Below, in pieces: positions 1,417 through 64,000 of a stretch of 64,000 bases of DNA. The translations under genes and the position numbers were made by a program. How positions within the stretch are numbered: position 1 is the stretch's first letter; every line of letters starts with the position of its first letter. Below the pieces are notes generated by a model. It saw only the letters and a list, made by a program, of their open reading frames with translations, did no database searches and had not been told where the DNA came from. Origin of the DNA: Candidatus Saccharimonadota bacterium (GTDB lineage: Bacteria; Patescibacteriota; Saccharimonadia; Saccharimonadales; Saccharimonadaceae); the NCBI GenBank assembly GCA_027450165.1, contig DAIDKE010000004.1:1-64000 (forward strand). Direction: 5' to 3'.

Positions 1417-2203
1417 AGTAATAACATCCGTAAATAACGGCCTGCTCGGGGTGTTTAGCCTGAACAATTTTTGGCGTTGGAATATGTTCCGGTAGGTGTT
1501 TGTTCAGAATGTCTGTCAAATCTTTACCGTAACGGTCGAAGTAGGTGCCAACACTGCCGCCAATGATGATTACGTCTGGCTGCAGCATCGGTATGATCGC
1601 TAGAAAACCGCGGCTGATACGACCGGCAATCTGGCGCCAGGTGCGCTTGCTGTGAATGTCGCGGGCAAATTTGTGATATTTCTTGACGATAGCTCGGCCA
1701 GAAGCAAAGCTTTCCCATTGTTGGACTTTGCCCTTGTATTCAACTAGCATGTGTCCACCTTCACTATAGCGGACTCCTGGGTCAATCTTGCCCTGGGTTA
1801 CAAAACCGGTCCCGATGCCGGTGCTAACGGTAACGTAAAGTGAACTTTCGGGAATTTTTTCTAGGCTGCGCGTTTCGGCTAGACCGGCCAAATTGGCGTC
1901 ATTTTCAATCCAAACTGGCGCATCCCCTAAGACTCCAGCGAGTGTCTCTTGGGCGTGGAAGTTCTTCCACCCAAGGTTATTGCACCATACAGCAACGCCG
2001 TTTTTGATAATGCCTGGCAAGGCTATGGCTACAGCCTCGACGTCTTTACCGGCGTAATTATCGACTAATGTTTTACGTAATAGGTTGATATATTCGGTCT
2101 GATCTTTTGGTGTTTCGAAGCGAATGACATCGCCTAACTGGCCATCTTTTGAAAAGCTGGCGACAAGTGTTTTTGTGCCCCCGGTGTCTACAGTTACAAT
2201 CAT
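1388..2203 (-). CDS. ROK family sugar kinase
   Basis: This 271-residue protein has the actin-like ATPase features of ROK kinases: phosphate-1 loop DTGGTKT at residues 6-12, catalytic Asp102 in ENDAN (100-104), phosphate-2 STGIGTG at 127-133 and an SGRA segment near 168-171. ROK enzymes phosphorylate glucose, fructose, N-acetylmannosamine or similar sugars; the substrate cannot be read here. The usual zinc-binding CxCGxxGC segment after the EGGHM motif (148-152) is absent, so this is a zinc-less ROK branch. On the minus strand an extended -10 (TGTTAAAAT, 2210-2217) ends 6 nt before the ATG with no Shine-Dalgarno sequence, which predicts a leaderless transcript shared with the downstream protease. 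Confidence 0.88.
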   Translation of the reverse strand: MIVTVDTGGTKTLVASFSKDGQLGDVIRFETPKDQTEYINLLRKTLVDNYAGKDVEAVAIALPGIIKNGVAVWCNNLGWKNFHAQETLAGVLGDAPVWIENDANLAGLAETRSLEKIPESSLYVTVSTGIGTGFVTQGKIDPGVRYSEGGHMLVEYKGKVQQWESFASGRAIVKKYHKFARDIHSKRTWRQIAGRISRGFLAIIPMLQPDVIIIGGSVGTYFDRYGKDLTDILNKHLPEHIPTPKIVQAKHPEQAVIYGCYYYATDCLASR

Positions 2204-2250
2204 GGCTCTATTTTAACATTTAGCAAGGTTGGCAAAAATGGTAACTTTAG

Positions 2251-2279
2251 TTGCGTTTTTACCCATAAGAGGTAATAAT
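2251..2279 (+). promoter_or_regulatory. Promoter of the LPQTG protein gene
   Basis: TTGCGT at 2251-2256 and TAATAA(T) at 2273-2279 are 16 nt apart. A strong GGAGGT ribosome binding site follows at 2291-2296. Confidence 0.6.
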
Positions 2280-2301
2280 AGTTTTATAACGGAGGTACAC
2301 C

Positions 2302-2718
2302 ATGTGGCGAAGAGTTTTAAATAGCCGACTGTGGATTTCGGTAGGGGTGGTGGTAATCCTAGCGGCGGCCTTGATTGGCGGCAGCATTTTAGTTCAAAAA
2401 CGGGGTGAGCAGGCGCGAGCGCGTGGCGCCGAAGTTGCAGTTCAGCAGCAGAAAAATAGTGAAAATAGTGACAATAGTCACAGCCAGACCAGCTCAAACA
2501 GCAGCCAGTCTTCATCTGGTCAAACTGGGTCGTCTGACACAACTGCAACCGGTAGCGCAAATTCAAATAGCGCAGAATCAACACCGGTCACCGGGCAATT
2601 GCCGCAGACTGGACCGAGCGATTTTTTGGGAACGGCCTTGGTGCTGGCGATGCTGACGTTTAGCGCCGTATTATATTTGCGCTCAAGACAAGCTAATACT
2701 AGTAGATCTTTGACCTAA
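2302..2718 (+). CDS. Small LPQTG-anchored surface protein
   Basis: This 138-residue protein has an N-terminal hydrophobic segment (10-31), a long Ser/Asn/Gln/Thr-rich linker (about 48-96), then LPQTG at 100-104, a second hydrophobic helix (108-126) and a positive tail (RSR). LPxTG plus helix plus basic tail is the cell-wall sorting signal of sortase substrates in Gram-positive bacteria. The linker looks like a flexible wall-spanning stalk with no catalytic domain. It stands alone between its own promoter and the rpsA promoter, which overlaps its last codons. No sortase gene lies in this window. The first transmembrane helix may be an uncleaved signal anchor. Confidence 0.8.
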   Translation: MWRRVLNSRLWISVGVVVILAAALIGGSILVQKRGEQARARGAEVAVQQQKNSENSDNSHSQTSSNSSQSSSGQTGSSDTTATGSANSNSAESTPVTGQLPQTGPSDFLGTALVLAMLTFSAVLYLRSRQANTSRSLT

Positions 2719-2738
2719 AGGCTTAACTGAGGTATAAT
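2710..2738 (+). promoter_or_regulatory. Strong promoter of rpsA
   Basis: TTGACC at 2710-2715, a 17-nt spacer and a perfect TATAAT at 2733-2738. The -35 box lies inside the end of the preceding coding region. The leader runs about 65 nt to the rpsA start. Confidence 0.9.
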
Positions 2739-2810
2739 AGTAGCTAATCGAGGAGCCGTATTTTAAATATGGCCCAAGAAATACATTTAAGGAAGGAATA
2801 ATATTAACTA

Positions 2811-3887
2811 ATGGCAAAAGCCCAAATAACAATGGACGAATTGCTCGCCTCAGAAGGCGACGGCGTCAAAAAAATAGCTGGAGGAGAGGTCATCGGCGGT
2901 ACGATTTTATCGATCCGCAAGCATGAAATCCTAGTTGACCTTGGCGCACATGGTGTCGGTTTAGTGCCACGCCGCGAGGTCGGTTTTTCGCGCAACTTAA
3001 ACGTTGGCGACGAAGTAACAGCTAGCATTGTTGATCCAGAACTAGAGAACGGTTACGTTCTGTTGAGTTTGCGTAAAGCCGCCAAGGATCGCGGCTGGGA
3101 TGAACTGGCTGCAAAGATGGAGAGCGGCGAAATCATCGAGGTTTCACCATACGACGCCAACCGTGGTGGTTTGTTGGTTGAATACGATGGTGTGCGCGGT
3201 TTCTTGCCGGTTTCACAACTGTCGGCCGAGCACTACCCACGGGTTGGCTCAAGCGACAAGGAAGAAATCTTGCAACGCCTGAACGTCTTGATCGGTCAAG
3301 CTTTGAAGGTTCGAATCTTGGACTGCGACCGCAAGGCTAACAAGCTAATTTTTAGCGAAAAAGAAGCCATCAAGGATGGTCTAGCTGAGCGCTTCGAAAA
3401 ACTAGCTGTTGGCGATGTTGTTACCGGTGTAGTAACTGGTGTTGTCGACTACGGCGCTTTCGTTAACGTTGATGGTATCGAAGGTTTGGTGCACATCTCA
3501 GAAATTAGCTGGGAACGTGTCAATAATCCTGCCGATTACGTCAAGGTTGGCCAGAGTATCGAGGCTAAAATTATCGCTATCGACAAGGACCGCCTAAGTC
3601 TAAGTATCAAGCAATTGAGCGAAGACCCATGGCTATCAGAAGTTGAGCAGTTCTCGGTTGGCCAAACTGTTGAAGGTACTGTAACGCGCATTACGCCGTT
3701 TGGTGCATTTGTTCAGATTAGCCCAGCCGTTGAAGCATTGGTTCACGTTAGTGAGCTAGGCGAAGGCGATGGGGCTGATCCAGAAAAGGTCTTCACTTTG
3801 AACGAGCGCAAAGAGTTTGTCGTGCTCGACATCGAAAAAGACAACCGCAAGATCTCGCTTGGTTTACCGAAAAAAGCCAAGAAGTAG
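2811..3887 (+). CDS. rpsA: 30S ribosomal protein S1
   Basis: This 358-residue protein is built of four S1/OB-fold repeats, roughly at residues 22-90, 103-170, 195-265 and 280-350; the last two carry the typical GVVxxVxxYGAFV and GxVxxITPFGAFV openings. S1 helps 30S subunits bind and unfold mRNA. E. coli S1 has six repeats; four-repeat forms are usual in Gram-positive and reduced genomes. AAGGAAGG lies near 2790-2797 ahead of the ATG. The gene has its own near-consensus promoter and is followed 56 nt later by infB. S1 copes with structured or leaderless messages in other bacteria, relevant to the many leaderless starts predicted in this window. Confidence 0.95.
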   Translation: MAKAQITMDELLASEGDGVKKIAGGEVIGGTILSIRKHEILVDLGAHGVGLVPRREVGFSRNLNVGDEVTASIVDPELENGYVLLSLRKAAKDRGWDELAAKMESGEIIEVSPYDANRGGLLVEYDGVRGFLPVSQLSAEHYPRVGSSDKEEILQRLNVLIGQALKVRILDCDRKANKLIFSEKEAIKDGLAERFEKLAVGDVVTGVVTGVVDYGAFVNVDGIEGLVHISEISWERVNNPADYVKVGQSIEAKIIAIDKDRLSLSIKQLSEDPWLSEVEQFSVGQTVEGTVTRITPFGAFVQISPAVEALVHVSELGEGDGADPEKVFTLNERKEFVVLDIEKDNRKISLGLPKKAKK

Positions 3888-6145: not shown

Positions 6146-9100
6146 ATGGTCGAATCTGAACCGACAATTAGTACTAGCGAAACGACTCTTGGTGGAAACG
6201 TTGCGACAATGGAGCATACAGCTCCGGAGTCTTTAGATGATAGCCAAAAGGTAACTGACGAGCAGCTGCAGGGGCTTGATCCATCAGTCCTAGAGTTGAT
6301 GTCGAGCGCCAATGCGGTTCTAGGCGGTGAACAGACCGTCGATGAGGCTTTTAAAGACGACACTTCAAATGAAGCGGAAGCGAAAGATAACGACGTTGCG
6401 GTTGCAACTAATGCCTCAACGTCAGCTCCGGCAGCTTATACGCTAGCGTCTGCCGCCCAACCAACGCCGCCAGCCGCACCGGTAAGCCCAGTGCCAGCTT
6501 CGAATGCACCTTCGGACGGTTCATCCCGCCAAGATAGCGACGAGGTTCCGGTCTATACTTTTACGACTGTCGATGATTCACATGGTCGTGAAGTACGTGC
6601 GCACGAGCTAGCCGAAAAGCGTTTGACGACCGAACTAAACGAGGGCGGTAAATTTAAACGCTTTTTGAAGTCAATTTGGCAGGGCAATATTGCCCGTGAT
6701 CAATATATTGCTAAGTATGCGGCGCAATACCGTCAGTCAATTGATCAGGCTGGGAGTATCAATTTAGACGACGACAATTCCGGGTTTGAGAAGCAGGCGC
6801 TAATTGACCGCTTTTCAAGCGAATACGACGAAACAGTTCATGCCGAAGCGGGTGAAAGGCGCGCCGAGTTAGCCTCAGATTCTGAATTTGCAACCCGAAC
6901 AAAGGACTTGCTCAGGCAGTATGCTAATGGCGAGTTAGACGACGAAAGCTTGATTGAAGAGCGCGGACGCCTATTAAAAGAATTAGCCGATGCCGGCAAC
7001 GATGAGCTGCTTGGCGAGGGTAAACTAAGGATTGATAATTTAGTGCAAATCGCCCAGGCCGTGAAGGGTTCGTTTGAACACGGAAAAAGTTTGGACCGCA
7101 TGCTTGATGCCATGCGTTTTATTAACGGTGAGGCTAAATCTGGCGCCCGAACTGAAGTTCATTATAATCGAGTCGAGAAAGTTGCGCAAAGACTCTCTAG
7201 CGGTCGTCTAGGCGCCCTAATGAGCCCCGAGGCGGTAATTACTGCGGTTGGCGTAACGACGACCTTGTTGCATTTGGGCAGTCGTAGCGCTACTAACGCT
7301 GCACTGAAGACCATAGCACCGGGTCTTTCAGGGGCTATTTGGGCCGGTGCTTGTGAAGGCCGACGCACCAAGGAAGAACGAGCGCAAAATGCGCGCGAAC
7401 GAGCCTACGGTGGTAAAATTGGCGAATCCGATAAGCGTCGCTTAGAGATGGACCAGACCAATTATGATTTGGCGACCGCTGCCAGCTTGACCGAAGAGCT
7501 GCGTAGTTTAACTGGCGAAGAGGTTGATCTATCTAAACGAGAGGCTTTAGAGGCGGCATTGACTTCATTGGCGGCAATTGAAGCACGTATGAAGCTTGCG
7601 GACGGCCATCATGTTGATCTAATTACTTATGATGATCAAACGACGGTCGAGGCTGGGCGGTTTGATCTCGATTTGGCTCGCGCGGAAGCAAAAGCGGCAA
7701 TTAACCAGCATTTGACCGATGAACTGCGCACTCAACTTGGCTTTCCCGCTGAGCAATCGGTTAATGAATTAATCGGGCAAAGGTCACAAGCTACCGTCGA
7801 GGCTCTATCAGAGATGATGTCCGAGAGGGACAAGGCATTTAATAAATTACGCACTAAGCGTATGGCTTCGGCGGCGCTTAAGGGACTAATAATCGGCGGC
7901 ACCATAGGCTTAGCGGCCCAGGAAACGATGGCGGCCTTCGATCCATCGCGGGCTGGCTTGATAGAGCAGTTATGGCACGCGAAAACCGGACTGATTAATG
8001 GTGAGCAGCACCAGACATTCCTTGAGGGGCTTGCTAATGGTGATCACAGCGCGATTCACCACATGGCTGAATCGACCTTCGGTCCAGATCAGCATATTGG
8101 CCAGAACGGTACGCTATCGATGTCGGCTGACCATAGTATCAACTACGATCCAACCAACCACACGCTGTCATTTACCGACCCTACAGGTCACGAAACGATT
8201 GGCCATGTGCCGGTTGAGTCTGACGGAAGTCTTTCTCAAAGCACGCAGCATATGCTCGAAGCCAAAGGTTTTCATGTTGAAGATTTTTCACATCAGGTTA
8301 CCGATGCGCCAGAGGTCTCAACTTCTACTCAAACAATTGGCGTCGAAGATTATGTGCATCAGCATCCTGAACTGACTACGCACATCAAACGTGATATGTG
8401 GTTTGATAACAATACTCCGGGTAAATTCGATCGTAATGAACTCGGATTACACTGGGGCGGCAGCGGCGTTAATCAAGACGGCTCATTCCAAATGAGCGTT
8501 TCGTCAATGACTGAAAATGGTTCATTCCATGACGGCACGTCGGTTGATTGGTCGCAAGCAGCGGCTGCCGGGCACCTGGAGCTAGCCGTTTCGGCTACCA
8601 GCGGTACCCAAACAGAAGTGTTTATGGTACCAATTGGCCCAGACGGCAGTATTCATATTGCGGCCGATAATCCAGCAGCTCACTTTTTTGCTAACGAAAA
8701 CGGCCACGCCGTCTTTAATGGTAAATATGCCGAGGTCGTGCAGACACTGAAGACCGACGATGCCGGTGTCGAGCATGTGCGCCCGCTGGCTACGTTGGTG
8801 GGCCACAATAATGTAAGCAGCGTACAGGAAACCATTCAAACCGTCATTCCACATAGCCACACCGAATTTGATTATCGCATTACGTCACCTGGCTACGAGA
8901 CGGTCCAGAGCAACTTCACCGAAATGGCGCCAAACATTCCGGTTATTCCAAGGCGAGCTATGGAAGTTATAAGACCGGGTGCTAGTAAAATCGAGACAGA
9001 ACTTAACATTTATCGGGCTATTTATGGAGGTGGTGATAGTCTAGAGGCTATGCGTGAATGGGTTGAGGAAAGGCCCGGCCGACTTCACTCTAGGCGTTAT

Positions 9101-11281
9101 CTTGAAGACGAGGGGCGTTGGGTAGAAGCGGATGGAAGCACGGTTGAGCGTAATGTTGATCGAGAGCGCGCCGAAATCGCAAAATACCTGGAGCGCGAAG
9201 CTCAACGAGACCCTGCTTATATTGAGCGTGTCCGTCAAGTTGCTAACCAATTAGGCGCTATGGGCGACTCAACTCGCGTAGCTGTTTGCGTGCCCGCGTG
9301 GATGGAAGAGAGGGCAATTGGTAATTTCTTAGATCAGTACATGCAGCAGACTCGACGCACTGTTGACGGTGGCGAAATTGATAAAGATTTATATGAAATT
9401 AACGTCTTAGTAAATCACCGCAAGGGAGCAGAAGAAGATGGCACTGCTCGTGTAATTCAGGAGTTTATCGATAACTATACGGCTGAACATGGTGGCACTA
9501 GGCCAAATATTAACTTTGTCGACGTGGAATTTAATGCGCCCGAGGCCAATGTCGGCTTTGCTCGCAAACTCCTTACCGATGCGGTAATGATGCGTAGCGT
9601 TGCCCGTGGCGCTCAGTCTGCTCCACTGTATATTGAGTCTGAGGACGCAGACATCACGCGCCTAGATCACCATACCATCTTTAATCTAATTGAAAAACTC
9701 GACACCAACCCATGGTTAGACGCCGTGCGCGGTACTGACGATAGGTCGCCAGACATACTAATGCAAAACGACAAGCTATTCCTGGAGCGACGCTTGTGGA
9801 ACTTTACTAGCGCGCTGATTGGCCAAAAAGTCTTTCGGCAACCGGAAAACAGTAACTGGAATTCAATGTGGAACCGGGTCTATACAAATGGATGGAACTC
9901 TGGCTTTACCGCCGAAGCTTATGCGCTAATTGATGGCTATACGCCGATTCCAGTGGGTGAAGATATGCAAATTGGGGCAAGAATATCAATGGTTCGAGGC
10001 GACGGCAGTATACCGAACCTTGAGGTTGTAGCACGTATCGGTACTCGATCGGACAGTTCGCCACGACGTTTTATAGCGGCTATTGAGGCTGGCGTTGAAG
10101 CGTATGATGAAGGACAGTTTACGAATCCGCGCGTGAATAAACTTATTCGCGAGAATAGCGACGAAGAGCTATTAAAACAGATTGACCGTGTGAGGCGTAT
10201 CGATGTCGACAATGAAGCTGAATTTAACGGTATGATACAAAATTACTATAACACTATGAATTATGAACATTGGGCGCCGTCCTTTGATGAAAGTGAACGA
10301 GTTATGCGGCGTGTTATGTTCTGGATCGGCTTCTCACGCGATGATTATGAGATTAGTAATGTGAAGGATGCCAATGGACGCACTGTTTCGAGTAGCATAA
10401 ATGTAAAATCGTGGGATCACGTCAAAAAAGCGCTTAATGATTATCGTCTCCGCCATGGAGTAACTGATTTAAGTCCAGGCGACGTAGAAGTGAACCCGGC
10501 CTCAAACCAGACTCCGGCCTTAAGCGCAGATGATACGCCCACCCAAGAGATACCAGTATCGGAAATAATTGCGGCGTCGCAACTCGACAGCGCGCCAGAA
10601 GCGCCGGCTGATGTCAATTCGGAGGCATCCGAAGGGACTTTAATCGGTGAAGGTCTACAATATAGGGTATTTGATGAAGGAAACGGTAGGGTTATGAAAG
10701 ACCCTGGCGGCCTCAACACTTCAACGGTAGCTGAAAATATGCGTCGTATGTATTTGATACCTAATGATTTACCGAAAGAAGAAGCCGAAGCACGTGCTAA
10801 TAGTATTATTTTGGCCCGTGATCGAGGCGCTCGGTTTGTGCGCCGGCTAGCGCAAAATCGTCCCGATCAGCTATGGCTGTTTGGCAATCCGTCTATTGAC
10901 CAAAATGGTCGTATCGAACAAGACAAGGTTACTCTATTTAGTGACTACTTGGATAGCCAAGCTACTGAAGACGAGAAGCGTCGGGCAATCGATAAGTATG
11001 TAGACGCTGTTAAAAACGCTCTTCGTGCAGGAGCAATTGAATATACCTTTAATTTTGGTCGTAATTTTGGTGTCGACAACAGTGGGCAGGTGGTCTTAAT
11101 TGACTTTGGCGAGCTTGGTTTACGTAAAAATGATGCCCATGGCGTAATTGACGTTCGCGGTTGGGAACAGTCGCATGACGCAACCTTGTTGAGCCCAGAG
11201 CTTAGGGCGTATTTCAACGAGGCTATGGCACGTGAAATAACCCATGAAACAGTTGATGAATTGTGGCCAGCTAGAGGTTAG
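6146..11281 (+). CDS. Giant membrane-associated protein: glycosyltransferase-like plus kinase-like domains
   Basis: This 1711-residue protein opens with a disordered acidic and Pro/Ala-rich part (1-135), then a long helical region (about 150-345). Hydrophobic stretches at about 351-405 and 571-598 are candidate membrane segments. A Gly/His/Asp-rich, beta-looking region follows (600-960). From about 1043 (VAVCVPAWMEE) it resembles a GT-A/GT2 glycosyltransferase: an acidic ESEDAD near 1164, GTDDRSPD near 1190 and GEDMQIGARI near 1271. After a variable linker (1415-1490) comes a kinase-like fold: glycine loop LIGEGLQYRVF near 1497, Lys in RVMKDP, and LIDFGE near 1650. The usual catalytic Asp of the HGDxxxxN loop appears to be Phe, so the tail may be a pseudokinase. 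No full-length family was recognised. Confidence 0.8.
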   Translation: MVESEPTISTSETTLGGNVATMEHTAPESLDDSQKVTDEQLQGLDPSVLELMSSANAVLGGEQTVDEAFKDDTSNEAEAKDNDVAVATNASTSAPAAYTLASAAQPTPPAAPVSPVPASNAPSDGSSRQDSDEVPVYTFTTVDDSHGREVRAHELAEKRLTTELNEGGKFKRFLKSIWQGNIARDQYIAKYAAQYRQSIDQAGSINLDDDNSGFEKQALIDRFSSEYDETVHAEAGERRAELASDSEFATRTKDLLRQYANGELDDESLIEERGRLLKELADAGNDELLGEGKLRIDNLVQIAQAVKGSFEHGKSLDRMLDAMRFINGEAKSGARTEVHYNRVEKVAQRLSSGRLGALMSPEAVITAVGVTTTLLHLGSRSATNAALKTIAPGLSGAIWAGACEGRRTKEERAQNARERAYGGKIGESDKRRLEMDQTNYDLATAASLTEELRSLTGEEVDLSKREALEAALTSLAAIEARMKLADGHHVDLITYDDQTTVEAGRFDLDLARAEAKAAINQHLTDELRTQLGFPAEQSVNELIGQRSQATVEALSEMMSERDKAFNKLRTKRMASAALKGLIIGGTIGLAAQETMAAFDPSRAGLIEQLWHAKTGLINGEQHQTFLEGLANGDHSAIHHMAESTFGPDQHIGQNGTLSMSADHSINYDPTNHTLSFTDPTGHETIGHVPVESDGSLSQSTQHMLEAKGFHVEDFSHQVTDAPEVSTSTQTIGVEDYVHQHPELTTHIKRDMWFDNNTPGKFDRNELGLHWGGSGVNQDGSFQMSVSSMTENGSFHDGTSVDWSQAAAAGHLELAVSATSGTQTEVFMVPIGPDGSIHIAADNPAAHFFANENGHAVFNGKYAEVVQTLKTDDAGVEHVRPLATLVGHNNVSSVQETIQTVIPHSHTEFDYRITSPGYETVQSNFTEMAPNIPVIPRRAMEVIRPGASKIETELNIYRAIYGGGDSLEAMREWVEERPGRLHSRRYLEDEGRWVEADGSTVERNVDRERAEIAKYLEREAQRDPAYIERVRQVANQLGAMGDSTRVAVCVPAWMEERAIGNFLDQYMQQTRRTVDGGEIDKDLYEINVLVNHRKGAEEDGTARVIQEFIDNYTAEHGGTRPNINFVDVEFNAPEANVGFARKLLTDAVMMRSVARGAQSAPLYIESEDADITRLDHHTIFNLIEKLDTNPWLDAVRGTDDRSPDILMQNDKLFLERRLWNFTSALIGQKVFRQPENSNWNSMWNRVYTNGWNSGFTAEAYALIDGYTPIPVGEDMQIGARISMVRGDGSIPNLEVVARIGTRSDSSPRRFIAAIEAGVEAYDEGQFTNPRVNKLIRENSDEELLKQIDRVRRIDVDNEAEFNGMIQNYYNTMNYEHWAPSFDESERVMRRVMFWIGFSRDDYEISNVKDANGRTVSSSINVKSWDHVKKALNDYRLRHGVTDLSPGDVEVNPASNQTPALSADDTPTQEIPVSEIIAASQLDSAPEAPADVNSEASEGTLIGEGLQYRVFDEGNGRVMKDPGGLNTSTVAENMRRMYLIPNDLPKEEAEARANSIILARDRGARFVRRLAQNRPDQLWLFGNPSIDQNGRIEQDKVTLFSDYLDSQATEDEKRRAIDKYVDAVKNALRAGAIEYTFNFGRNFGVDNSGQVVLIDFGELGLRKNDAHGVIDVRGWEQSHDATLLSPELRAYFNEAMAREITHETVDELWPARG

Positions 11282-13555: not shown

Positions 13556-15496
13556 CTATAGCAGGCTAGTTGGATCGAGTTCGTATTGCCAATTGGTTGG
13601 CGGCAGGTAATCTATGAGCGAACTTAAGTATTCGCGCTTGGGACTTTTAAGGACTAGCTGCCATCGGTAAGTTCCACGAAGACGCTCGTAGAATGACGGT
13701 GTCGGGCCAAGGATCTGGACACTTGGATCGGCCACGGATCTTAATTTTTGCGCCAGCTCCTTAGTGGCTCTGACTGCGCCCGCCTCGGTTTTATAAACAG
13801 CCGTCAATTTTAGTAAATAGACAAACGGGGGGAAGTGGGCTTGAGCGCGCGTTGCCAAAACTTGCTGGTAAAAAGCTTCATAATCTTGGTTGAGTCCGTA
13901 CACGATACTGGGATGATTTGGTTGATATGACTGAACGATCACGTTGGTCGGCTGAGCATTGCGGCCAACGCGTCCAATAACCTGGCTTAATAATTGAAAC
14001 GTGCGTTCACTGGCCGAGTAGTCGGGCAGGGCTAGTCCGCTGTCGGCCTGAATAACACCAACGGTACTTAAATGTGGCAAGTCTAAGCCTTTGGCTACCA
14101 CCTGAGTGCCGATCGCAATATCGATATCGCCGTTATATAGCTGGTCGTAAAGCTTATCTAGGCTTTTGTCGGACTCAGTATCAGAATCAAAACGGGCGAT
14201 GTGTGCTTGAGTAAATATTTTGTTCAACTCCGCTTCGATCAGTTTTGTGCCGATACCTTTATGGATAATGTCGGCTGAGCCACAAACTGGACACGTCTTT
14301 GGTACGTGCTGCTTGTAGCCGCATATGTGGCAGCTAAGTTCAAACTTATCGGTATGAAGTGTCAGCGGCACGAAACAATTAGGGCACAAGGCAGTCCAGC
14401 CGCAGTTACTGCACAAAGTCGTTGCGGCACTACCGCGCCGGTTATGAAAGATTAGGGTTTGGCGATGTTCGGCTAAGTTTTTCTCGATCGACGCCAAGAG
14501 CGCGTCCGACAAAAAACGATGTCGTTTGAAGTTGGAACGCTTAGTCATATCAATTAAATCGATTATAGGCGGCAGCGCATCTTGGCGCGCTCGGTCATTA
14601 AGTCGTAAAACCGGACGATTGGTTTGTTCGGCGACATAACGATCCGCCACCAAAGGTGTTGCACTGCCAAAAACGGTTTTTGCTTTAGCGAAGCGGCCTA
14701 GCATAGTCGCGGCGCGTAAGGCCGAGTAGCGCGGTGACTGCTCTTGTTTAAAACTTGGTTCATGCGCCTCGTCGATAACAATCAGCCCAAGATCTTTGAC
14801 GGGCGTAAACAGGGCGGATCGTGGGCCGATGATTAGTTGCGGCTTGGTGGCTGTTAAGGCCTGGCGCCAGGCTAGGTGACGTTCGGCTTCGCTGGCCTTT
14901 GAGTGCGTGACTATAATGTCGTCAAAGTGGTTGGCAAATTCGGCGATTACTTGCGCGGTGAGCGCAATTTCCGGTACCAATATTATGACCGACTGTCCGC
15001 GCTCTATTGTCTGGCGCGCCAGCTCAATGTAGACGGCGGTTTTGCCGGAGCCGGTAACACCCTGCAGCAAGAAGGTGCCAGGCTCAGAGTCACCAATTTT
15101 TGCTATAGCGGCGAGTTGTGACTCATTGAGCAAAAAATTTGTTCGTTCGCGGACGGCTCTGTTAATAGATGGTTTAGCGGCGCGGCGTTTAACGGTTAAT
15201 CCGCGCGGCAAAACAGTTTGGAGAACGGTTGCCAGGGGCGTCTTATAGTATTCGCTCAGCCAAAGCCCCAGCCTCACCGTAGCATAGGGTAGTGGCGTAT
15301 CTTCGATAAGCCGAGTGATGGGTTTGGTTTTAAACTCTGGTGGTGTGACTTTTTTGACGACCACTCCAGTTAGCTGTTTTTTACCAACCTCTATAACAAC
15401 TAATTGGCCAACCTTAAGAGGTGACTCGTAGCTATAAGTAAACACGTCGCTGCCAGACCGAATAATTTGGTTGGGGGCCACCTCGTAATAGTGCAT
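13556..15496 (-). CDS. priA: Primosomal protein N' (PriA helicase)
   Basis: This 646-residue superfamily 2 helicase reloads the replisome at collapsed forks. After the DNA-binding 3'BD domain comes Walker A (GVTGSGKT), the DEAH box (VIDEAHEPSFKQEQ), eight Cys residues in four CxxC-type pairs forming the zinc lobe (CSNC, CPNC, CHIC, CPVC), and helicase motifs V and VI (GTQVVAKGLDLP, QVIGRVGR). It is slightly shorter than E. coli PriA (732). A TATACT on the minus strand (15503-15508) ends 6 nt before the ATG with no Shine-Dalgarno sequence, so the operon mRNA is predicted leaderless. The divergent gene at 15547 shares this 50-nt gap. Confidence 0.97.
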   Translation of the reverse strand: MHYYEVAPNQIIRSGSDVFTYSYESPLKVGQLVVIEVGKKQLTGVVVKKVTPPEFKTKPITRLIEDTPLPYATVRLGLWLSEYYKTPLATVLQTVLPRGLTVKRRAAKPSINRAVRERTNFLLNESQLAAIAKIGDSEPGTFLLQGVTGSGKTAVYIELARQTIERGQSVIILVPEIALTAQVIAEFANHFDDIIVTHSKASEAERHLAWRQALTATKPQLIIGPRSALFTPVKDLGLIVIDEAHEPSFKQEQSPRYSALRAATMLGRFAKAKTVFGSATPLVADRYVAEQTNRPVLRLNDRARQDALPPIIDLIDMTKRSNFKRHRFLSDALLASIEKNLAEHRQTLIFHNRRGSAATTLCSNCGWTALCPNCFVPLTLHTDKFELSCHICGYKQHVPKTCPVCGSADIIHKGIGTKLIEAELNKIFTQAHIARFDSDTESDKSLDKLYDQLYNGDIDIAIGTQVVAKGLDLPHLSTVGVIQADSGLALPDYSASERTFQLLSQVIGRVGRNAQPTNVIVQSYQPNHPSIVYGLNQDYEAFYQQVLATRAQAHFPPFVYLLKLTAVYKTEAGAVRATKELAQKLRSVADPSVQILGPTPSFYERLRGTYRWQLVLKSPKREYLSSLIDYLPPTNWQYELDPTSLL

Positions 15497-15546
15497 GTTT
15501 TTAGTATACTCGACGTGCGCAGACTATGCCTGTATGATATAAACAT

Positions 15547-16206
15547 ATGCTTTATTTTGAGAGTCGAGCCCAAGCCGGCCAGATTTTAGCCGCTGAATTA
15601 TTGCAGCGCTATCGCTATGAGAACTGTGCCGTAGTAGCCCTGAATGACGGTGCTGTTTTAGTTGGCGAACAGATAGCAGCGGCGTTACATTGCATTTTGA
15701 CGTTGTTGCTTGCCGAGGATATTCCAGTGCCTGGCGAGGATCAAAGTTTTGGCGGCGTATCTCAAGACGGCGAGTTTACCTATAGTAGCGAGCTGTCCGA
15801 GGGCGAGCGCGATGAATACACCGAGGAGTTTCATGGATACCTAGAGGAAAAGAAGCTTGAAGCGTTCCAGCGCATCAATCGCTTGGTTGGTGATGGCGGT
15901 TTAATTGACCACGACATGTTGCGGGATCGGGTTGTGATCTTGGTCTCAGATGGCATCGACAGTACGACCATCCTCGATGTTGCTCGTGAGTTTTTAAAGC
16001 CGATTCGAATTCAGAAATTAATCGTGGCCGCCCCTGTGGCGTCAGTCTCGGTGGTTGACACGCTCCACATGGTAGCCGACGAACTACACGTGCTGGACGT
16101 TAAAGAGAACTATATGGGCGTTAACCACTATTACGACAGCAACGATATTCCGTCTCACGATGAAACAATCGCCAAAATCAATCAAATTATATTGAATTGG
16201 CGTTGA
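15547..16206 (+). CDS. Phosphoribosyltransferase-like protein
   Basis: This 219-residue protein matches the type I phosphoribosyltransferase layout: an N-terminal ESRAQAGQILA segment, VVALNDGAVLVGEQIA (the pyrophosphate-loop strand) near residues 29-44, a hood insertion rich in Glu (70-110), and VVILVSDGIDSTTILDVA near 139-156 in the place of the PRPP loop. In active enzymes that loop reads DDGxxTG(A/S)T; here it is SDGIDSTT, so PRPP binding may be weak and the product is best called PRTase-like. A TATGAT hexamer (15533-15538) ends 8 nt before the ATG and no Shine-Dalgarno sequence is present, so a leaderless start is likely. Substrate unknown. Confidence 0.7.
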   Translation: MLYFESRAQAGQILAAELLQRYRYENCAVVALNDGAVLVGEQIAAALHCILTLLLAEDIPVPGEDQSFGGVSQDGEFTYSSELSEGERDEYTEEFHGYLEEKKLEAFQRINRLVGDGGLIDHDMLRDRVVILVSDGIDSTTILDVAREFLKPIRIQKLIVAAPVASVSVVDTLHMVADELHVLDVKENYMGVNHYYDSNDIPSHDETIAKINQIILNWR

Positions 16207-18264: not shown

Positions 18265-18335
18265 GTCTAACTAAACATATTGGTTAACTGAGTATTGCTT
18301 TAAGGCATTGGTATATTTATGCTAGAATCATGATC

Positions 18336-20580: not shown

Positions 20581-20608
20581 CTTATGCTTAATATAGCACG
20601 CACCACGC

Positions 20609-20637
20609 TTGCAACTCCAGTCCACATCTGTTACAAT
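20609..20637 (+). promoter_or_regulatory. Promoter of rpsU
   Basis: TTGCAA at 20609-20614, a 17-nt spacer and TACAAT at 20632-20637. Transcription would start at or within a few bases of the ATG at 20648. The region is shared with the divergent ABC exporter promoter. Confidence 0.75.
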
Positions 20638-22647: not shown

Positions 22648-22693
22648 GGCTGGCCACTTTTCAACCAGCGGCGTAAGCGGTATACTTGGACGT

Positions 22694-23935
22694 ATGCAAG
22701 AAGTATCCAGGTATGCTGTTGGTATTGATGTAGGAACGACAACAGTTCGGGCAGTTGTAGGACATATCGACGCTTCAACCGGTACACCAACGATTGTTGG
22801 TGTCGGCCAAGCACCAAATAGCGGTATGCGTAAGGGAACGGTCGTTAATTTGACCGGTCCAGGTAAGGCTATTGATGAAGCCTTGGGTGAGGCCGAGCGC
22901 ATGAGTGGCTATCAAGTTGATCGCGCAACCGTTAGCATCAACGGTTCGCATATTTTGAGTACGCGCACTGATGGCATGATTGCCGTTGGAGCGCCGGATC
23001 ATGAAATTAATCATGATGATTTAGCGCGCATCGAAGAGGTGGCGACGCTCGGTAAGATTCCGGCTAACCGTGAAATTCTTGATATTGTGCCGCACGCTTA
23101 TCGCCTGGATGGCCAAGATAATATTAAAGATCCAGTTGGCATGACCGGCACCCGGCTAGAAATCGACGCCTTGGTGGTGTCAGCACTAACGCCGCATTTG
23201 GTTAATTTGCAGCGCACCGTCGAGACCGCGCAAGTTGCGCCACATTCAATCGTTGCTTCGGGAATTGCCGCGGCTCGCGCTGTTTTGGGCGAACAACAGA
23301 TGGAAAACGGCGTTGCCCTAGTTGATATTGGCGGTGCTACGACTAGCATTGCTGTTTACGAAGAGGGTGACTTGCAATATGTTGGTGTAATTCCACTTGG
23401 TGGGGTTAATATCACTAACGATTTGGCGATTGGACTAAAAACCGACCCAGAGGTTGCCGAGAAGGTTAAGCTAACTCATGCCTCGGCAGTTGATCGCGCC
23501 AACCAGCAAGTTACTTTGAAACACGCTAACGAAAGTTACACCTTTGATACGCAAGACATTGATGAGATCGTCGAAGCGCGACTAGAAGAAATTTTTGAAG
23601 GTATTCAACGCGAGCTAAAGAAGGCCGGTCGGGCCGGTAAATTACCAAGCGGCGTTGTTTTAACTGGCGGCACCGCACAGCTAAAGGGTTTGGTTGATTA
23701 TGCTAAAAATTACCTTGGTCTAGCGGCCCGAGTTGGCAAAGCTAGCGGCTATGGCGGCGTGGCCGACAATATTGATCAGCCGCAGTTTGCCGCTGCGGTC
23801 GGTTTGATGTTAATTGATACCGCTGGTAGCCAGCGGGTACTTGATAATGGTCACAAAAAGACTAAAATGCCAAATGTAAACCTGAAAAAAGCCGGTTCAA
23901 GACTAACTAAGTTCTTCCGTGGTTTCAAGGCGTAG
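22694..23935 (+). CDS. ftsA: Cell division protein FtsA
   Basis: This 413-residue actin-like protein tethers FtsZ to the membrane. It has [14 protein letters not shown] at the N-terminus, a 1C domain with INGSHI, the phosphate-2 region [13 protein letters not shown] near residue 214, adenosine loop [11 protein letters not shown] near 322, and a C-terminal amphipathic helix ([12 protein letters not shown]) that serves as the membrane anchor. TATACT at 22681-22686 ends 7 nt before the ATG with no Shine-Dalgarno sequence, so the message is predicted leaderless. ftsZ follows at 61 nt with its own extended -10 box. Confidence 0.96.
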
Positions 23936-23996
23936 TGTTTTTGACGTTAAGTGTTATACTAGTTTACAAGGAATTCTAGAAGAGGGAGCAATATTA

Positions 23997-25187
23997 ATGC
24001 CTGAAGTAAAACCAAGCGACATACAGACCTTTGCGAGCATTAAAGTGGTCGGTGTTGGTGGTGCCGGTGGATCGGCCGTAAATCGTATGAAGGATGCCGG
24101 GCTGGCTGGCGTGCAATTTATTGCCATGAACACCGATGCCCAGGCTCTCCACAACTCGAAAGCTGACGTTAAAATTCACCTCGGTCACAATACGACCAAT
24201 GGTTTAGGCGCTGGTGCCGACCCCTCGGTTGGTGAAGCGGCCGCGAATGAGTCACGCGAAGAAATAAAAGACGCACTGACCGGTGCCGACATGGTCTTTG
24301 TGACCATTGGTGCTGGTGGCGGTACTGGTAGTGGCGCCGGTTACATCGTGGCCGAAGTCGCCCAAGAACTTGGTATTTTGACTGTTGGTGTAGCAACGAA
24401 ACCGTTTAGTTTTGAAGGCGAGAAGCGCCGCAAAAATGCTGACTGGGCCATTAATATGCTTGGCCGCACGGTTGATACGTTGATTACGATTCCAAACGAT
24501 CGTCTGCTGCAGACAATCGACCGCCGTACGCCGCTACTTGAGACATTTAAGATTGCCGACGACGTTTTGCGCCAAGGTGTGCAAGGTATTTCAGAATTGA
24601 TTACCGAACACGGTTTAATTAACCTCGACTTTGCCGATGTTAAGGCCATTATGAGCCACGCTGGTTCAGCCTTGATGGGTATTGGTCGAGCAAGTGGCGA
24701 CAACCGTGCCGCTCAGGCCGCCCAACAAGCGATTGAATCACCACTAATTGAAGTTTCGATTGACGGCGCCAAGGGCGTACTGTTCAACGTTACCGGTGGC
24801 TACGACATGAGCATGAGCGAAATTCAAGAAGCAGCCGAGATTATTACCAGCGCTGTTTCACCAGACGCCAATATTATCTTTGGTGCCACCCTGAAGCCTG
24901 ATCTAGAAGATGAGCTGATTATTACGGTTATCGCTACTGGTTTTGACTCGGCTTATTACCACCAGGATGAAGCGGTTGAAGAAGCTGTTCGCGAAGAGGT
25001 TGCCGTTCCAAAAATGGATTTGTCAAAAGCAATCGACCTAAGTCTTGACCAAAGCGAGGCGGCTAGCGTCTTTAACGAAGAGCCAACGCACGATATCTGG
25101 AATCAACCACCTGAGGAAGATGACGAATCGGACACGCCAGCTTTTCTGCGTCGCCGCAAGAAACACAAAAAATCTGACGAGGAGTAA
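23997..25187 (+). CDS. ftsZ: Cell division protein FtsZ
   Basis: This 396-residue tubulin homologue forms the division ring. The GTP-binding GGGTGSGAG signature, NTDAQAL and IPNDRLL segments are present, and the C-terminal conserved peptide [13 protein letters not shown] fits the FtsA-binding tail. The frame is open from 23919, but the ATG at 23997 matches the family start and has GAGGGAG upstream (about 23982-23988). An extended -10 box TGTTATACT lies at 23952-23960. nrdR begins 3 nt after the stop. Confidence 0.97.
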
Positions 25188-29987: not shown

Positions 29988-30015
29988 GCGTCACGACCGC
30001 GGTATACTTATATAT

Positions 30016-37065: not shown

Positions 37066-37158
37066 AGACTAGAATCTATTATACATGAGCATCGTGGCAA
37101 TAGATACAGCTATTAGGGTTCACTGACCGGCCTTTTTTAGGTATTATAAGATAAGCAT

Positions 37159-40185: not shown

Positions 40186-40217
40186 AAGTATATTATAACA
40201 TAAATTTATGTCTAAAT

Positions 40218-41768: not shown

Positions 41769-41841
41769 AATCTTGGTAATTATATCTGTTTTTGATTGAT
41801 TTGTCTAGAGATGGATTTTATCTCGAAAACGTGGCATCTGA

Positions 41842-43886: not shown

Positions 43887-43932
43887 TTTGTACTAGTGTT
43901 TTTGGCGGTTTTAAGGTAAAATGTATCTATAT

Positions 43933-44331
43933 ATGGATAAGGAAAACTTCAAACGCAAACACGCGGCGTCGATCGAGTCGCGCATTAAATTATGGGCCGA
44001 GATGGGCGGTAATCATTTTTCAGCATATCCGCTGCTTGATCGGATTGCGCTGGCGATGCGCATTAATAACGAATCAGGCGAGCGCGACGCTTTTTATCAC
44101 GGTGTGAACACGCTTGCTGTTACAGAACTGGCAAAAGAGGGTATTATGGCCGAAGTTTATGCGATGCGCGGTGATTTTAGCTACGGTAACGAGGATAGTC
44201 GCGACTACGTCCGGGTTTATGAACGCGGCGGACGTCCGACTGAGATTGACAGGCTAAAATTGAGCGGTTACCAAAAGTATGTCGTCAGGGCCTCAGCGGC
44301 TGATTTGAAACCGGAAAATGATGTAGAATAG
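43933..44331 (+). CDS. Hypothetical protein
   Basis: Starting at the ATG at 43933, this protein has 132 residues; the frame is open from 43921 but the internal ATG lies 10 nt after a TAAAAT box at 43917-43922. It is rich in charged residues and probably alpha/beta: a helix with KRKHAASIESRIKLWAEMGG, ARLD-type stretch LLDRIALAMRINNE, then a beta-like FSYGNEDSRDYVRVYERGG. No family was recognised. It precedes frr by 6 nt but frr seems to have its own -10 box within this gene's end. Confidence 0.65.
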   Translation: MDKENFKRKHAASIESRIKLWAEMGGNHFSAYPLLDRIALAMRINNESGERDAFYHGVNTLAVTELAKEGIMAEVYAMRGDFSYGNEDSRDYVRVYERGGRPTEIDRLKLSGYQKYVVRASAADLKPENDVE

Positions 44332-49278: not shown

Positions 49279-49316
49279 TTCGTCACCCTTATCTTGTGCT
49301 AAACTTGTAATCAGTT

Positions 49317-51483: not shown

Positions 51484-51523
51484 GTAGGTTGACATTTTTT
51501 AGTACCTTGTATAACATAGAACT

Positions 51524-53489: not shown

Positions 53490-54187
53490 TCGAAATAAAG
53501 CATATATCCAAAACATACGGTAAAAAAGAGTCGGCCTTTGAGGCTTTAAAGGATGTGACGTTTACCATTCCAGACGGTGCCAGCGTGGCAATTCTAGGCA
53601 AGTCTGGTAGCGGCAAGTCAACCTTGATGCACGCCATGAGCGGCCTAGATCGTCCGCAAACCGGAGAAGTCGTCATTGATGGCCAAAATATTTTGACGCT
53701 CAAAGACAAGCAGGTTGATCGTTTTCGGGCTGAAAAAATCGGCTTTATCTTCCAAAGTTTTTTTGTTCAAGGTAACGAGACTGTCAGCGATAACGTGAGT
53801 TTGCCGCTTGAAATTGCCAATGTAGCGTTTTCGTCGCGACGCAAGCGTGTCGAGGCGGCCCTAGATAGTGTTGATTTGCTCGAGAAAAAGAATAATCGCG
53901 CTAAAGATTTGTCGGGTGGCCAAAAGCAGCGCCTGGCGATTGCCCGGGCTATCGTCAACAATCCGTCGATTATTTTCGCCGACGAACCGACCGGTAACCT
54001 AGACAGTGTGACTGGTGCTAAGGTTGAGGATTTGTTATTTTCTTATAACAAAAACAAGGGCGCGACCCTAATTATCGTGACCCACGATGCCGATCTTGGT
54101 GCAAAATGCGACATCATCATTCACATTAAAGACGGTAAGATTGAGTCGATTGACAATAAAAAGACACGAGATGGAGCTAAGCGATGA
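53486..54187 (+). CDS. ABC transporter ATP-binding protein (MacB/LolD type)
   Basis: This 233-residue ATPase has Walker [10 protein letters not shown] near residue 38, the Q-loop with [10 protein letters not shown], signature DLSGGQKQR near 139, Walker [13 protein letters not shown] and H-loop TH. This is the MacB/LolD/FtsE family. It starts with GTG at 53486, whose GTGA overlaps the preceding stop by 4 nt, and itself overlaps the permease by 4 nt. Confidence 0.94.
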
Positions 54188-55464: not shown

Positions 55465-55486
55465 TAAGCGTGATACAATATAGTTC

Positions 55487-59865: not shown

Positions 59866-59874
59866 AGATAAGAT

Positions 59875-61161: not shown

Positions 61162-61162
61162 T

Positions 61163-62467
61163 ATGCCAATTAAACACAAGGTGCACGAGTTAATTTTAAA
61201 AAACGGCGCCAAAGGTTTATTGATTGATGTTCCAGATACGACCGTGGCCTCGTTTGAGGTTTGTTTCCGGGCTGGTAATGAATATGTTATGCGCCCTGAG
61301 CGTCAACAAACAGCTCATTTAATGGAGCATATGGCGTTTGGATCTAATAAAGATTTTGGTGATCCCGAGACTTTTAGTCAGGAAATTACCAAAAACGGTG
61401 CTCGTTATAATGCTGTCACCTGGGACCGCGACATGGCATATTACATTGACTGTGCTCTGATGGAATGGGAGCGCATTTTAGATGTGCTTGAATTGACGGT
61501 TGTTGAGCCGGTTTACAAGAAGAATATTTTGGAATCGGAAAAAGGCAATGCTCGCGAGGAGCTAACTGGTGATCTGAATAATTATGCTCGTCTGTTAAAC
61601 CAGCGTGTTTATAAAGCCCTAGGCGACACCTTAATGCTTGATGCCGATAAATTAACAACCATCGACAGTGTGACTACAAGCGATATCAGACAACATCACG
61701 ACCGGACGCATACTACTGAAAATTTACGATTTGTGATTGCGGGTAATCTAGGCAGCCACGAGTCTAAAATTATTGCCAAACTAGAAAATTGGCATTTGGC
61801 GCGTGGTGAGCGTTTGCCGGTCACAAAGGCACATTATCATCGCGCTGAGCCAGTCACCATTGTCCGTAAAGATATGTCGAGTGTACGTTTTTTGCTATCA
61901 ATCGCTTTGAACCGTGAGCTAACAATGATCGAGCGAGATGCCATGGGTGCACTCAATCATATTTTGACCGGAACGGCCCACTCGCGAATTTGGGGCAAGG
62001 CTCGCAGTAGTGGCCTTTGTTATGGTATGGGCTCTCGGACTTATAGTGACGTGAGTGGTACTTCGTCGTGGGATTTTTATGGTCAAATCAGTCTCGAAAA
62101 TTCAGTGCCACTCTTTGATTTGATAATCGAACAGCTGAGGCGAATAGCAAACAGTGATCTTACAGAGGATGAGCTATATATTGCAAAACAGTATGCCCTA
62201 GGCGGTTTTCAGATGCGTGGCCAAACGGTCGCTAATTTGTTGGACTGGTACGCTGGTATGTACTTCGAAAAAGATGAAATTGACAATATCGACGACTCAC
62301 CAAAATACATTAACGCGACTGAGTTATCGCAAATCGAAGCCCTGGCGAAAGAGTTTTTAAACAGTGGTATATGGACAATAGGTTTGATTGGCAACGTGAC
62401 TGAAGCCGATACTAAGATCCTATACGATAAATTAAAGGGCTTACTGCCAGTCAAGGATGAAGAATAA
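61163..62467 (+). CDS. Second M16 family peptidase (paralogue)
   Basis: This 434-residue protein aligns end to end with the preceding one: the same opening (LKNGAKGLLIDVPDTTV versus LKNGARGLLIDVPGATV), the zinc motif HLMEH, and EKGNAREEL for the third ligand. The two therefore arose by tandem duplication and both retain complete catalytic sites, unlike typical M16B pairs, in which one subunit lacks the zinc motif. It may form a homodimer or heterodimer with its neighbour. The start overlaps nothing (1 nt spacing) and the stop overlaps murD by one base. Confidence 0.92.
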   Translation: MPIKHKVHELILKNGAKGLLIDVPDTTVASFEVCFRAGNEYVMRPERQQTAHLMEHMAFGSNKDFGDPETFSQEITKNGARYNAVTWDRDMAYYIDCALMEWERILDVLELTVVEPVYKKNILESEKGNAREELTGDLNNYARLLNQRVYKALGDTLMLDADKLTTIDSVTTSDIRQHHDRTHTTENLRFVIAGNLGSHESKIIAKLENWHLARGERLPVTKAHYHRAEPVTIVRKDMSSVRFLLSIALNRELTMIERDAMGALNHILTGTAHSRIWGKARSSGLCYGMGSRTYSDVSGTSSWDFYGQISLENSVPLFDLIIEQLRRIANSDLTEDELYIAKQYALGGFQMRGQTVANLLDWYAGMYFEKDEIDNIDDSPKYINATELSQIEALAKEFLNSGIWTIGLIGNVTEADTKILYDKLKGLLPVKDEE

Positions 62468-63759
62468 TGAAAATCGCAATCGCCGGTTACGGTGTTGAAG
62501 GGCAAGCTAACTACCGTTACTGGTCGGCTGATCCGGCTAACCAGTTGACGATTGTCGATGAGAAAAGTGAGCTCGACAATCTACCGCAAGGCGCAGCCAC
62601 AATTTTGGGTCCGGATGCTTTTTCAAAGCTCGATGGTTTTGATTTGGTGATTCGCACCGCCGGACTTGCACCGCGCAAAATTAAAACCGACGGCAAGATT
62701 TGGTCTGGTGCTAATGAATTTTTTGCTAAATGTCCGGCGCCGATCATCGGCGTGACAGGATCAAAAGGCAAGGGCACGACCGCCAGTTTAATCGCTAGCA
62801 TCCTAGAAGTGGCTGGTAAGAAAGTTTGGCTGGTTGGCAATATCGGTATTGCAAGTCTGGATATTCTCGATCAGATTAAACCAACCGACCTCGTGGTTTA
62901 TGAACTATCCAGCTTTCAATTATGGGATCTGGAGCGCTCACCGCAGACGGCCGTGGTGCTCTATATAGAGCAGGAGCACCTAGACGTTCACGCTGATATG
63001 GATGAATATGTGACAGCTAAAGCGCAGATTACAGCACATCAAGCAGCCGATGATTTGTTGGTCTACAATCAAAACAACACCTATGCCAATCAGATAGCCG
63101 CTAATTCGGTGGCGCAAAAACTTGGCTACCCGAGCGAGATGACAGCGCATGTTAATGACGGAAGCTTTTATTACGGCGAACAAGAAATTTGTTCAACCGA
63201 TGTTCTGCAGATCAGGGGTTCCCATAACTTAGACAATGCCTGTGCGGCGATTGACGCTATTTGGCAATATACCCAAGATCCATCTGTAATCGAAAAAGGC
63301 CTAAGTAGTTTCAAGGGTCTGCCGCACCGCTTGCAGCTAGTCGCGGTTGTAAATAGTGTAAGTTATTACGATGACAGCATTGCCACCACGCCAAGTTCGG
63401 CCATTGCGGCTCTAAGGTCGTTTGATGGACCTAAGGTTATTATCCTCGGCGGATCGTCAAAAGGCTCTGACTTTAGCGAGCTAGGACAGGAATTGAAACG
63501 ACAAGACGCCAAGGCCTTATTGATTGGCGCTGAAGCCTCAACCATTGCAGGGGCGTGCGATGCGGCCGATTTTAGTAACTATGAAATTTTAACAGACAAA
63601 ACTATGGCCGAGATTGTCAGCCGCGCTGCTGAAGTAGCCGAGCCGAATAGCACAGTCCTGCTGAGTCCGGCCGCCGCCAGCTTTGGTATGTTCAAAAACT
63701 ATGCCGATCGCGGCGATCAGTTCCAGGCGGCCGTAAAGAGCCTGGGTGCGGTACAATAA
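62467..63759 (+). CDS. murD: UDP-N-acetylmuramoylalanine--D-glutamate ligase
   Basis: This 430-residue Mur ligase adds D-Glu to UDP-MurNAc-L-Ala, an early peptidoglycan step. The N-terminal Rossmann-like part (AIAGYGVEGQANYRYW) binds the UDP moiety, the ATP-binding GVTGSKGKGTT (in place of the usual GTNGKST) lies near residue 97, ELSSFQLW is the MurD signature near 142 and the C-terminal domain has RLQLVAVVNSVSYYDDSIATTPSSA, characteristic of MurD. It shows that the organism makes peptidoglycan. Overlaps the second M16 gene by 1 nt. Confidence 0.95.
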   Translation: MKIAIAGYGVEGQANYRYWSADPANQLTIVDEKSELDNLPQGAATILGPDAFSKLDGFDLVIRTAGLAPRKIKTDGKIWSGANEFFAKCPAPIIGVTGSKGKGTTASLIASILEVAGKKVWLVGNIGIASLDILDQIKPTDLVVYELSSFQLWDLERSPQTAVVLYIEQEHLDVHADMDEYVTAKAQITAHQAADDLLVYNQNNTYANQIAANSVAQKLGYPSEMTAHVNDGSFYYGEQEICSTDVLQIRGSHNLDNACAAIDAIWQYTQDPSVIEKGLSSFKGLPHRLQLVAVVNSVSYYDDSIATTPSSAIAALRSFDGPKVIILGGSSKGSDFSELGQELKRQDAKALLIGAEASTIAGACDAADFSNYEILTDKTMAEIVSRAAEVAEPNSTVLLSPAAASFGMFKNYADRGDQFQAAVKSLGAVQ

Positions 63760-63764
63760 TAGAT

Positions 63765-64000
63765 ATGCATCAGCTGCAAAAACGAACCAGTGAACTATTA
63801 GAGCAAATCAATGCAGCTGTTTTAAGGCTTCATATAGCCGATAAGTTGCAGCAAATTGCTGCCGTCGAGGCCGAGTTAATGAACTCTGAAATTTGGAATA
63901 ACCCAAATTATGCTCAGGAAAAAAGCCGCCAGCTAGCCGCTATGCAGGCCGAAACCGAGCCTTGGCTGACACTCCAGACGCAAACCGCCGACCTAACGGA
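63765..64000 (+). CDS. prfB: Peptide chain release factor 2 (N-terminal part)
   Basis: The frame runs off the window end after about 78 codons. It matches the helical domain 1 of RF2, including ELMNSEIWNNPNYAQEKSRQLA, which corresponds to the DPDFWDDP-type segment. Starting at ATG 63765, 7 nt after TACAAT (63752-63757) with no Shine-Dalgarno sequence, the message is predicted leaderless. No in-frame UGA and no frameshift site (CUUUGA) occurs in the first codons, so the autoregulatory +1 frameshift of many bacteria is absent. The GGQ domain is outside the window. Confidence 0.88.
   Translation, partial: MHQLQKRTSELLEQINAAVLRLHIADKLQQIAAVEAELMNSEIWNNPNYAQEKSRQLAAMQAETEPWLTLQTQTADLT

Follow-up and report, generated by a model that had tools for sequence, protein, structure and literature searches.

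Extended -10 promoters directly before ATG point to leaderless genes beside a Shine-Dalgarno class in a Saccharibacteria genome

How is a gene read when a promoter-like hexamer ends only a few nucleotides before its start codon? This question is raised by a stretch of 64,000 nt from Candidatus Saccharimonadota bacterium (the window; bases 1-64000 of contig C4, DAIDKE010000004.1), which belongs to a genome of 794 kb in 7 contigs with 99.5% completeness and a G+C content of 48%. An earlier note on the window had listed 17 genes with a sigma-70-type -10 hexamer (TANNNT) shortly before the ATG and no Shine-Dalgarno (SD) sequence, and had suggested that their messenger RNAs (mRNAs) start at or near the ATG. 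We favour the explanation that sigma-A promoters yield leaderless mRNAs alongside a class of SD-led genes, and give it a probability of about 0.9.

The upstream regions of the listed genes were read individually. In 16 of 17 a TANNNT hexamer is present at the expected gap, defined as the number of nucleotides between the -10 hexamer and the ATG (Table 1). The exception is the LCP gene, where the hexamer at gap 8 does not match TANNNT and the nearest one that does lies at gap 11. The SD-like 4-mers flagged automatically at the PRTase-like gene, the ABC ATPase and serS (TGAT, TAAG) overlap or adjoin the -10 box and are probably incidental.

The genome-wide scan that had been proposed as a check covered 424 kb of this genome, made up of the 64-kb window and 360 kb of further stretches, with 349 usable gene starts. 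These were called with a home-made gene caller, which relies solely on coding potential and codon type and ignores any upstream signal. The peak at gap 6-10 is present. A TANNNT hexamer ends 5-10 nt upstream of 112 of the 349 starts, while 200 dinucleotide shuffles give 52.8±6.2 (maximum 69), an excess of about 9.5 standard deviations; among 4,840 interior ATGs the share is 8.0%. The gap histogram has a step between gap 5 (10 starts) and gap 6 (37 starts), and TAnnnT is the most enriched of 64 XYnnnZ patterns at gap 6-9. De novo motif discovery by expectation maximization was started from random seeds without a prior; its best motif is (TGn)TATAAT at gap 6-9 (about 34% of genes), followed by AAGGAG (about 31%). 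The genes led by such a box (TA-led) make up 78/349 (about 22%) by a strict call and about 34% by the mixture model. When the same pipeline is applied to E. coli K-12, 4% of genes are TA-led and motif discovery finds only the SD sequence. Deinococcus radiodurans MP1 gives 16%, with a step at gap 6 and none at gap 21-25.

The hexamers also behave like sigma-A -10 boxes, as had been claimed. When TA-led starts without SD are aligned on the hexamer, G is found at -2 in 64% of the cases in the own genome and in 74% in relatives, with T at -3, a purine at -4 and T at -5, giving TRTGnTATAAT. The suggested search for a -35 element at 16-18 nt reveals a weak T..G signal (positions -23 and -21), corresponding to a TTGACA-type -35 with a spacer of 17 nt. 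None of these flanking positions (-2 to -5, -21, -23) played a part in selecting the starts. Most information is carried by the -10, not by the -35. TRTGnTATAAT with a TTGACA-type -35 at 17 nt is the consensus of group 1 sigma factors. The genome contains a single sigma-70 region 2 match; the protein aligns over its length to SigA/RpoD structures and its region 2.4-3.0 block, IRIPVHMVETINKL, is unchanged. In E. coli, His455 and Glu458 of sigma region 3.0 contact the TG of the extended -10. TGnTATAAT, a -35 at 17±1 nt and a group 1 sigma factor with regions 2.4 and 3.0, the hallmarks of an extended sigma-70/sigma-A promoter, are thus found together.

The position of the promoter relative to the ATG is equally specific. 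When the search is restricted to the strict extended -10 pattern TGnTA[TCA]A[AC]T, 2 boxes are found at gaps 0-5, 39 at 6-10, 3 at 12-20 and 23 at 21-45 in the own genome. In 80 loci of relatives, all from one genomic neighbourhood, the numbers are 1, 186, 7 and 90. In the own genome, SD 5-mers are found in 2/39 genes of the close class vs 11/25 of the far class (p=3e-4), and the start codon is ATG in 39/39 vs 20/25. Over all genes, TA-led and SD-led starts are mutually exclusive (odds ratio 0.20, p=1.3e-9; 0.17 in the relatives' loci). Of 78 TA-only genes in the own genome, 67 are divergent from, or more than 25 nt away from, the upstream gene and thus head transcription units, and none is found in gene pairs with a -4/-1 overlap.

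Transcription by sigma-A holoenzyme starts about 7 nt after the -10 hexamer. At a gap of 6, +1 therefore coincides with the A of the ATG, and gaps below 6, at which the transcript would lose its ATG, are avoided. This spacing is what leaderless initiation needs: few boxes closer than gap 6, a sharp rise there, a nearly empty range at 12-20 and a separate, SD-leadered class. Very few leaders would measure about 5-14 nt, and leadered promoters return where an SD sequence fits.

From this arrangement we infer a transcription start at the ATG and direct initiation of ribosomes on a 5' AUG. A housekeeping sigma-A promoter of the extended -10 type (TRTGnTATAAT, weak -35) sits just before the ATG, and RNA polymerase would start at, or at most about 4 nt before, its A. 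Such a gene would head a transcription unit with an mRNA essentially without 5' leader, on whose terminal AUG ribosomes would begin without an SD helix. In the second class the same type of promoter lies at least 21 nt upstream, with a leader and an SD sequence, and operon-internal genes use SD sequences or translational coupling.

Four other explanations were weighed. One, which we consider very improbable, takes the hexamers not as promoters but as an AT-rich, unstructured translation enhancer or non-canonical ribosome binding site of leadered mRNAs, as proposed for Bacteroidetes. Enrichment of A upstream of the starts in all gene classes and the presence of an S1 protein with four S1 domains would fit with this. 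However, TRTGnTATAAT with TTG 17 nt upstream is a specific signal and no composition bias, the motif is absent from the -4/-1 overlap pairs and its lower edge at gap 6 is sharp. The AT bias without -10 specificity or dependence on operon position that marks a Bacteroidetes-type non-SD site is not what is seen here.

Highly improbable in our view is that the promoters are real but give ultra-short leaders of 1-5 nt, for which ribosomes would use an uncommon short-leader mechanism instead of leaderless initiation proper. Gaps of 9-10 are frequent indeed, with 15/39 of the close-class boxes in the own genome. However, the most common gap is 6, which for a transcription start 7 nt past the hexamer means +1 at the A of the ATG, and the near absence of leaders of about 5-14 nt also speaks against this reading.

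The gene-by-gene comparison across Saccharibacteria bears on the remaining two explanations. Distinct upstream sequences of orthologues were counted for TANNNT at gap 6-10, which is found for serS in 90/91 (10-22 in other 5-nt windows), for the class II tRNA synthetase at 49317 in 25/27, for the PRTase-like gene (15547) in 25/29, for priA in 14/16 and for prfB in 48/60. For secA it is present in only 3/76, with an SD sequence in 66, and for gene 51879 in 0/14, with an SD sequence in all 14. The gene at 54184, which turned out to be an FtsX/MacB-type permease and had been named otherwise, has the hexamer in 0/60 and an SD sequence in 57. The upstream flanks beyond the box cannot be aligned by eye among the relatives. 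The split by initiation mode proposed in the earlier note is therefore real and gene-specific across Saccharibacteria, as judged from these upstream counts. The prmC box is present in the own genome; its orthologues have a box only outside operons and none where prmC follows prfA. A gene can thus switch class.

That the start codons are mis-assigned and the true starts lie downstream, behind an SD sequence in a normal leader, is barely credible. Wrong longest-ORF (open reading frame) starts do occur in this genome: the start of ftsZ had to be corrected from 23919 to 23997. But within 30 codons downstream, no ATG or GTG preceded by a 5-nt SD occurs in any of the 17 listed genes; the one candidate is a TTG at codon 29 of prmC. 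The start residue is also shared by orthologues throughout the order. Chance is ruled out as the origin of the hexamers: although TANNNT is a loose pattern that shuffles produce at 53/349 starts at gap 5-10, the genome is no AT-rich one at 48% G+C, and the excess over shuffles, the de novo motif and the order-wide conservation in unrelated flanks leave no room for it.

Some points weigh against sigma-A promoters with leaderless mRNAs. Neither a TA nor an SD signal is found at 111/349 starts, and all gene starts rest on the home-made gene caller. The 80 relatives' loci are not independent, and p-values from them overstate independence because all share one genomic neighbourhood. Gaps of 9-10 could leave leaders of 1-4 nt. 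Finally, the genome encodes IF3, a factor that acts against leaderless initiation in E. coli, and special ribosomes or 70S initiation are hypothetical.

With respect to the translation apparatus, S1, IF2 and S2 are encoded in the window and IF3 elsewhere in the genome. Initiation on the leaderless mRNAs would presumably proceed via 70S ribosomes or 30S-IF2, a route taken from E. coli work because nothing here suggests a special ribosome. Loss of IF3 was rejected as cause of the class: IF3 is found in 143 of 145 Patescibacteria genomes, in lineages with and without the signal alike. In two near-complete genomes, G063 and G089, the C-terminal domain of IF3 was not found, and their TATAAT-ATG ratios (close vs far spacing, see below) are high with 16/4 and 93/33. 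Loss of the anti-SD sequence was also rejected, as ACCTCCTTT is intact in four family members; relatives were examined because in the own assembly a contig ends within the 16S gene, whose 3' end is missing. The 16S tail in these four (L264, L265, L266, L267) reads GGATTACCTCC and not the usual GGATCACCTCC, with an unchanged anti-SD core. The rRNA operon is split by the assembly, with the 5S gene at 172-281 of the window and the 16S gene cut at the end of contig C1. Ribosomal protein S1 (2832-3887) has only four S1 domains and probably starts at 2811, preceded by AAGGAAGGA.

How far the signal extends in Patescibacteria was addressed by annotation-free motif counts in 145 whole genomes. TATAATN{6,9}ATG occurs 9,999 times and TATAATN{18,21}ATG 6,304 times. 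The excess is significant in 89/145 genomes (false discovery rate 5%), is found in all 11/11 genomes of the own class with a ratio of 2.3 and is absent in about 20 of the 145. Motif discovery on 20-kb stretches finds TAnAAT at gap 6 in 20 high-ratio genomes and SD alone in 20 low-ratio genomes, a test that overlaps slightly with the ratio-based choice since the stretches belong to those genomes. On these motif counts, the putative TA-led class is widespread in the phylum but patchy by lineage.

The kind of system is already known from Actinobacteria and Deinococcus; Patescibacteria are a new lineage for it, with a share as high as in these classic groups. Three sequence features of leaderless-rich genomes are found here: a -10 peak at about 6-10 nt above background, TA-led genes without SD beside an SD class, and TA-led genes at unit heads. 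The TA-led class was defined by Zheng et al. (2011; PMC3160421) in 207/953 bacterial genomes, with shares of about 20% in Actinobacteria and about 40% in Deinococcus-Thermus; the groups with leaderless genes named there do not include Saccharibacteria or Patescibacteria. As in Actinobacteria and Deinococcus-Thermus (PMC3160421), TANNNT/TATAAT lies about 10 nt upstream, SD-led genes coexist and the proportion is similar; in the present genome, with 48% G+C, the box is a complete TRTGn-extended TATAAT. The strong TG before the box and the weak or absent -35 resemble the TA-led genes of the Lactococcus type, which belong to another phylum with a much lower G+C content (PMC3160421). According to a later survey quoted in PMC9581028, 21.6% of bacterial species are predicted to have leaderless transcription, in up to 40% of transcripts.

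The experimental model is the leaderless transcriptome of M. tuberculosis (Cortes et al., 2013; PMC3898074). Both systems comprise about a quarter of the genes, are dominated by a TANNNT -10 and include several tRNA synthetases. However, in M. tuberculosis TGn is found at only 7% of promoters, GTG is used as often as ATG, and no ribosomal proteins, initiation or elongation factors are leaderless (PMC3898074), whereas here TGn is common, only ATG is used, and rpmE, rpsU, frr and prfB belong to the class. In Deinococcus-Thermus, a -10 adjoining the ORF was confirmed by mutation to act as promoter for about 30% of ORFs (Zhong et al., 2025; PMC12340547); the arrangement is common to both, and its role here is predicted from sequence. 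Patescibacteria, or the Candidate Phyla Radiation, are not named in the main text of that study (PMC12340547). In a partial literature search, which did not cover most subscription journals and bioRxiv, neither a report of a leaderless class in Patescibacteria nor a study mapping transcript 5' ends was found.

Table 1. Putative -10 boxes upstream of genes in the window, with ftsZ as contrast.
Feature	Positions	Strand	Gene and remarks
-10 TAAAAT, TG-extended, gap 6	2210..2215	-	ROK-family kinase, start 2203, PF00480
-10 TATACT, gap 6	15503..15508	-	priA, start 15496, divergent to 15547
-10 TATGAT, gap 8	15533..15538	+	PRTase-like, start 15547
-10 TAGAAT, TG-extended, gap 7	18323..18328	+	small protein, start 18336
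-10 TATATT, TG-extended, gap 9	20590..20595	-	ABC ATPase, start 20580
-10 TACAAT, TG-extended, gap 10	20632..20637	+	rpsU-like, start 20648; S21 TIGR00030 just under cut-off
-10 TATACT, gap 7	22681..22686	+	ftsA, start 22694, FtsA TIGR01174
-10 TATACT, gap 7	30003..30008	+	zincin-like metallopeptidase, start 30016, PF06262
weak -10 candidate TATAAG, gap 8	37145..37150	+	LCP, start 37159; alternative TATTAT 37142-37147, gap 11
-10 TATAAT, TG-extended, gap 6	40192..40197	-	prmC, start 40185
-10 TATAAT, gap 10	41779..41784	-	rpmE, start 41768, L31 PF01197
-10 TATACT, TG-extended, gap 6, upstream -35-like TTGAAA	41864..41869	+	unknown gene, start 41876
-10 TAAAAT, gap 10	43917..43922	+	unknown gene, start 43933; alternative ATG 43921 overlaps -10
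-10 TAGAAT, gap 8	44324..44329	+	frr, start 44338, RRF PF01765
-10 TAACAT, gap 6, TTGACA 17 nt upstream	51512..51517	+	padR, start 51524, PadR PF03551
-10 TACAAT, TG-extended, gap 7	55474..55479	+	serS, start 55487
-10 TACAAT, gap 7	63752..63757	+	prfB, start 63765
-10 TAAACT, TG-extended, gap 11	49300..49305	+	class II tRNA synthetase (labelled lysS), start 49317; outside the earlier list of 17
TATACT, TG-extended (contrast case)	23955..23960	+	ftsZ, FtsZ Pfam match

In the contrast case ftsZ, TGTTATACT at 23955 is followed by 36 nt containing the SD sequence GAGGGAG and then by the ATG at 23997. The longest-ORF rule is wrong or undecided at 18330/18336, 43921/43933, 13538 and 23919/23997, and the position of the -10 (for ftsZ the SD) picks one. 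priA and the PRTase-like gene are divergent with 50 nt between their ATGs (15496-15547), each with its -10 at leaderless spacing, and the pair is conserved in relatives. At two genes the -10 box shares bases with the stop codon of the preceding gene: in frr (44324-44331, TAGAATAG) the final T of the box is the first base of a TAG, in prfB (63752-63759, TACAATAA) that of a TAA. Upstream of the orthologues of the gene at 62467 (L054, L056, L057, L060), the stop TAG of the preceding gene forms the first half of a TAGAAT -10. Such overlaps are seen in many relatives, but as a general rule an embedding of the -10 in the stop codon was rejected, as it is common only in the 62467 family, in addition to frr and prfB. 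Downstream of infB, an ORF of 1711 amino acids (6146-11281, plus strand), among the largest genes of the window, has no Pfam match at all.

A wider reading, which we regard as doubtful, is that the initiation mode is an inherited, gene-specific trait in Patescibacteria. A fixed set of genes for information processing (serS, another tRNA synthetase, prfB, frr, rpmE, rpsU, priA) might then have stayed leaderless throughout the depth of the class, as well as in numerous other phylum lineages, and their translation might depend on a ribosome form (70S or IF2-driven) other than the one used by the SD genes. If this is true, a host-dependent parasite would have a global switch with few regulators.

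Patescibacteria represent a very large share of bacterial diversity, of which few members are in culture and little biochemistry has been done, and leaderless initiation would extend past the usual phyla. A dense leaderless class would alter the annotation of starts and promoters, as the -10 would determine where the transcript begins and which codon starts the protein (18330 or 18336; 43921 or 43933). The boxes provide a ready list of predicted transcription starts for cultivable Saccharibacteria and, with genes like prmC and prfB, a gene-by-gene evolutionary data set on the switching of initiation mode.

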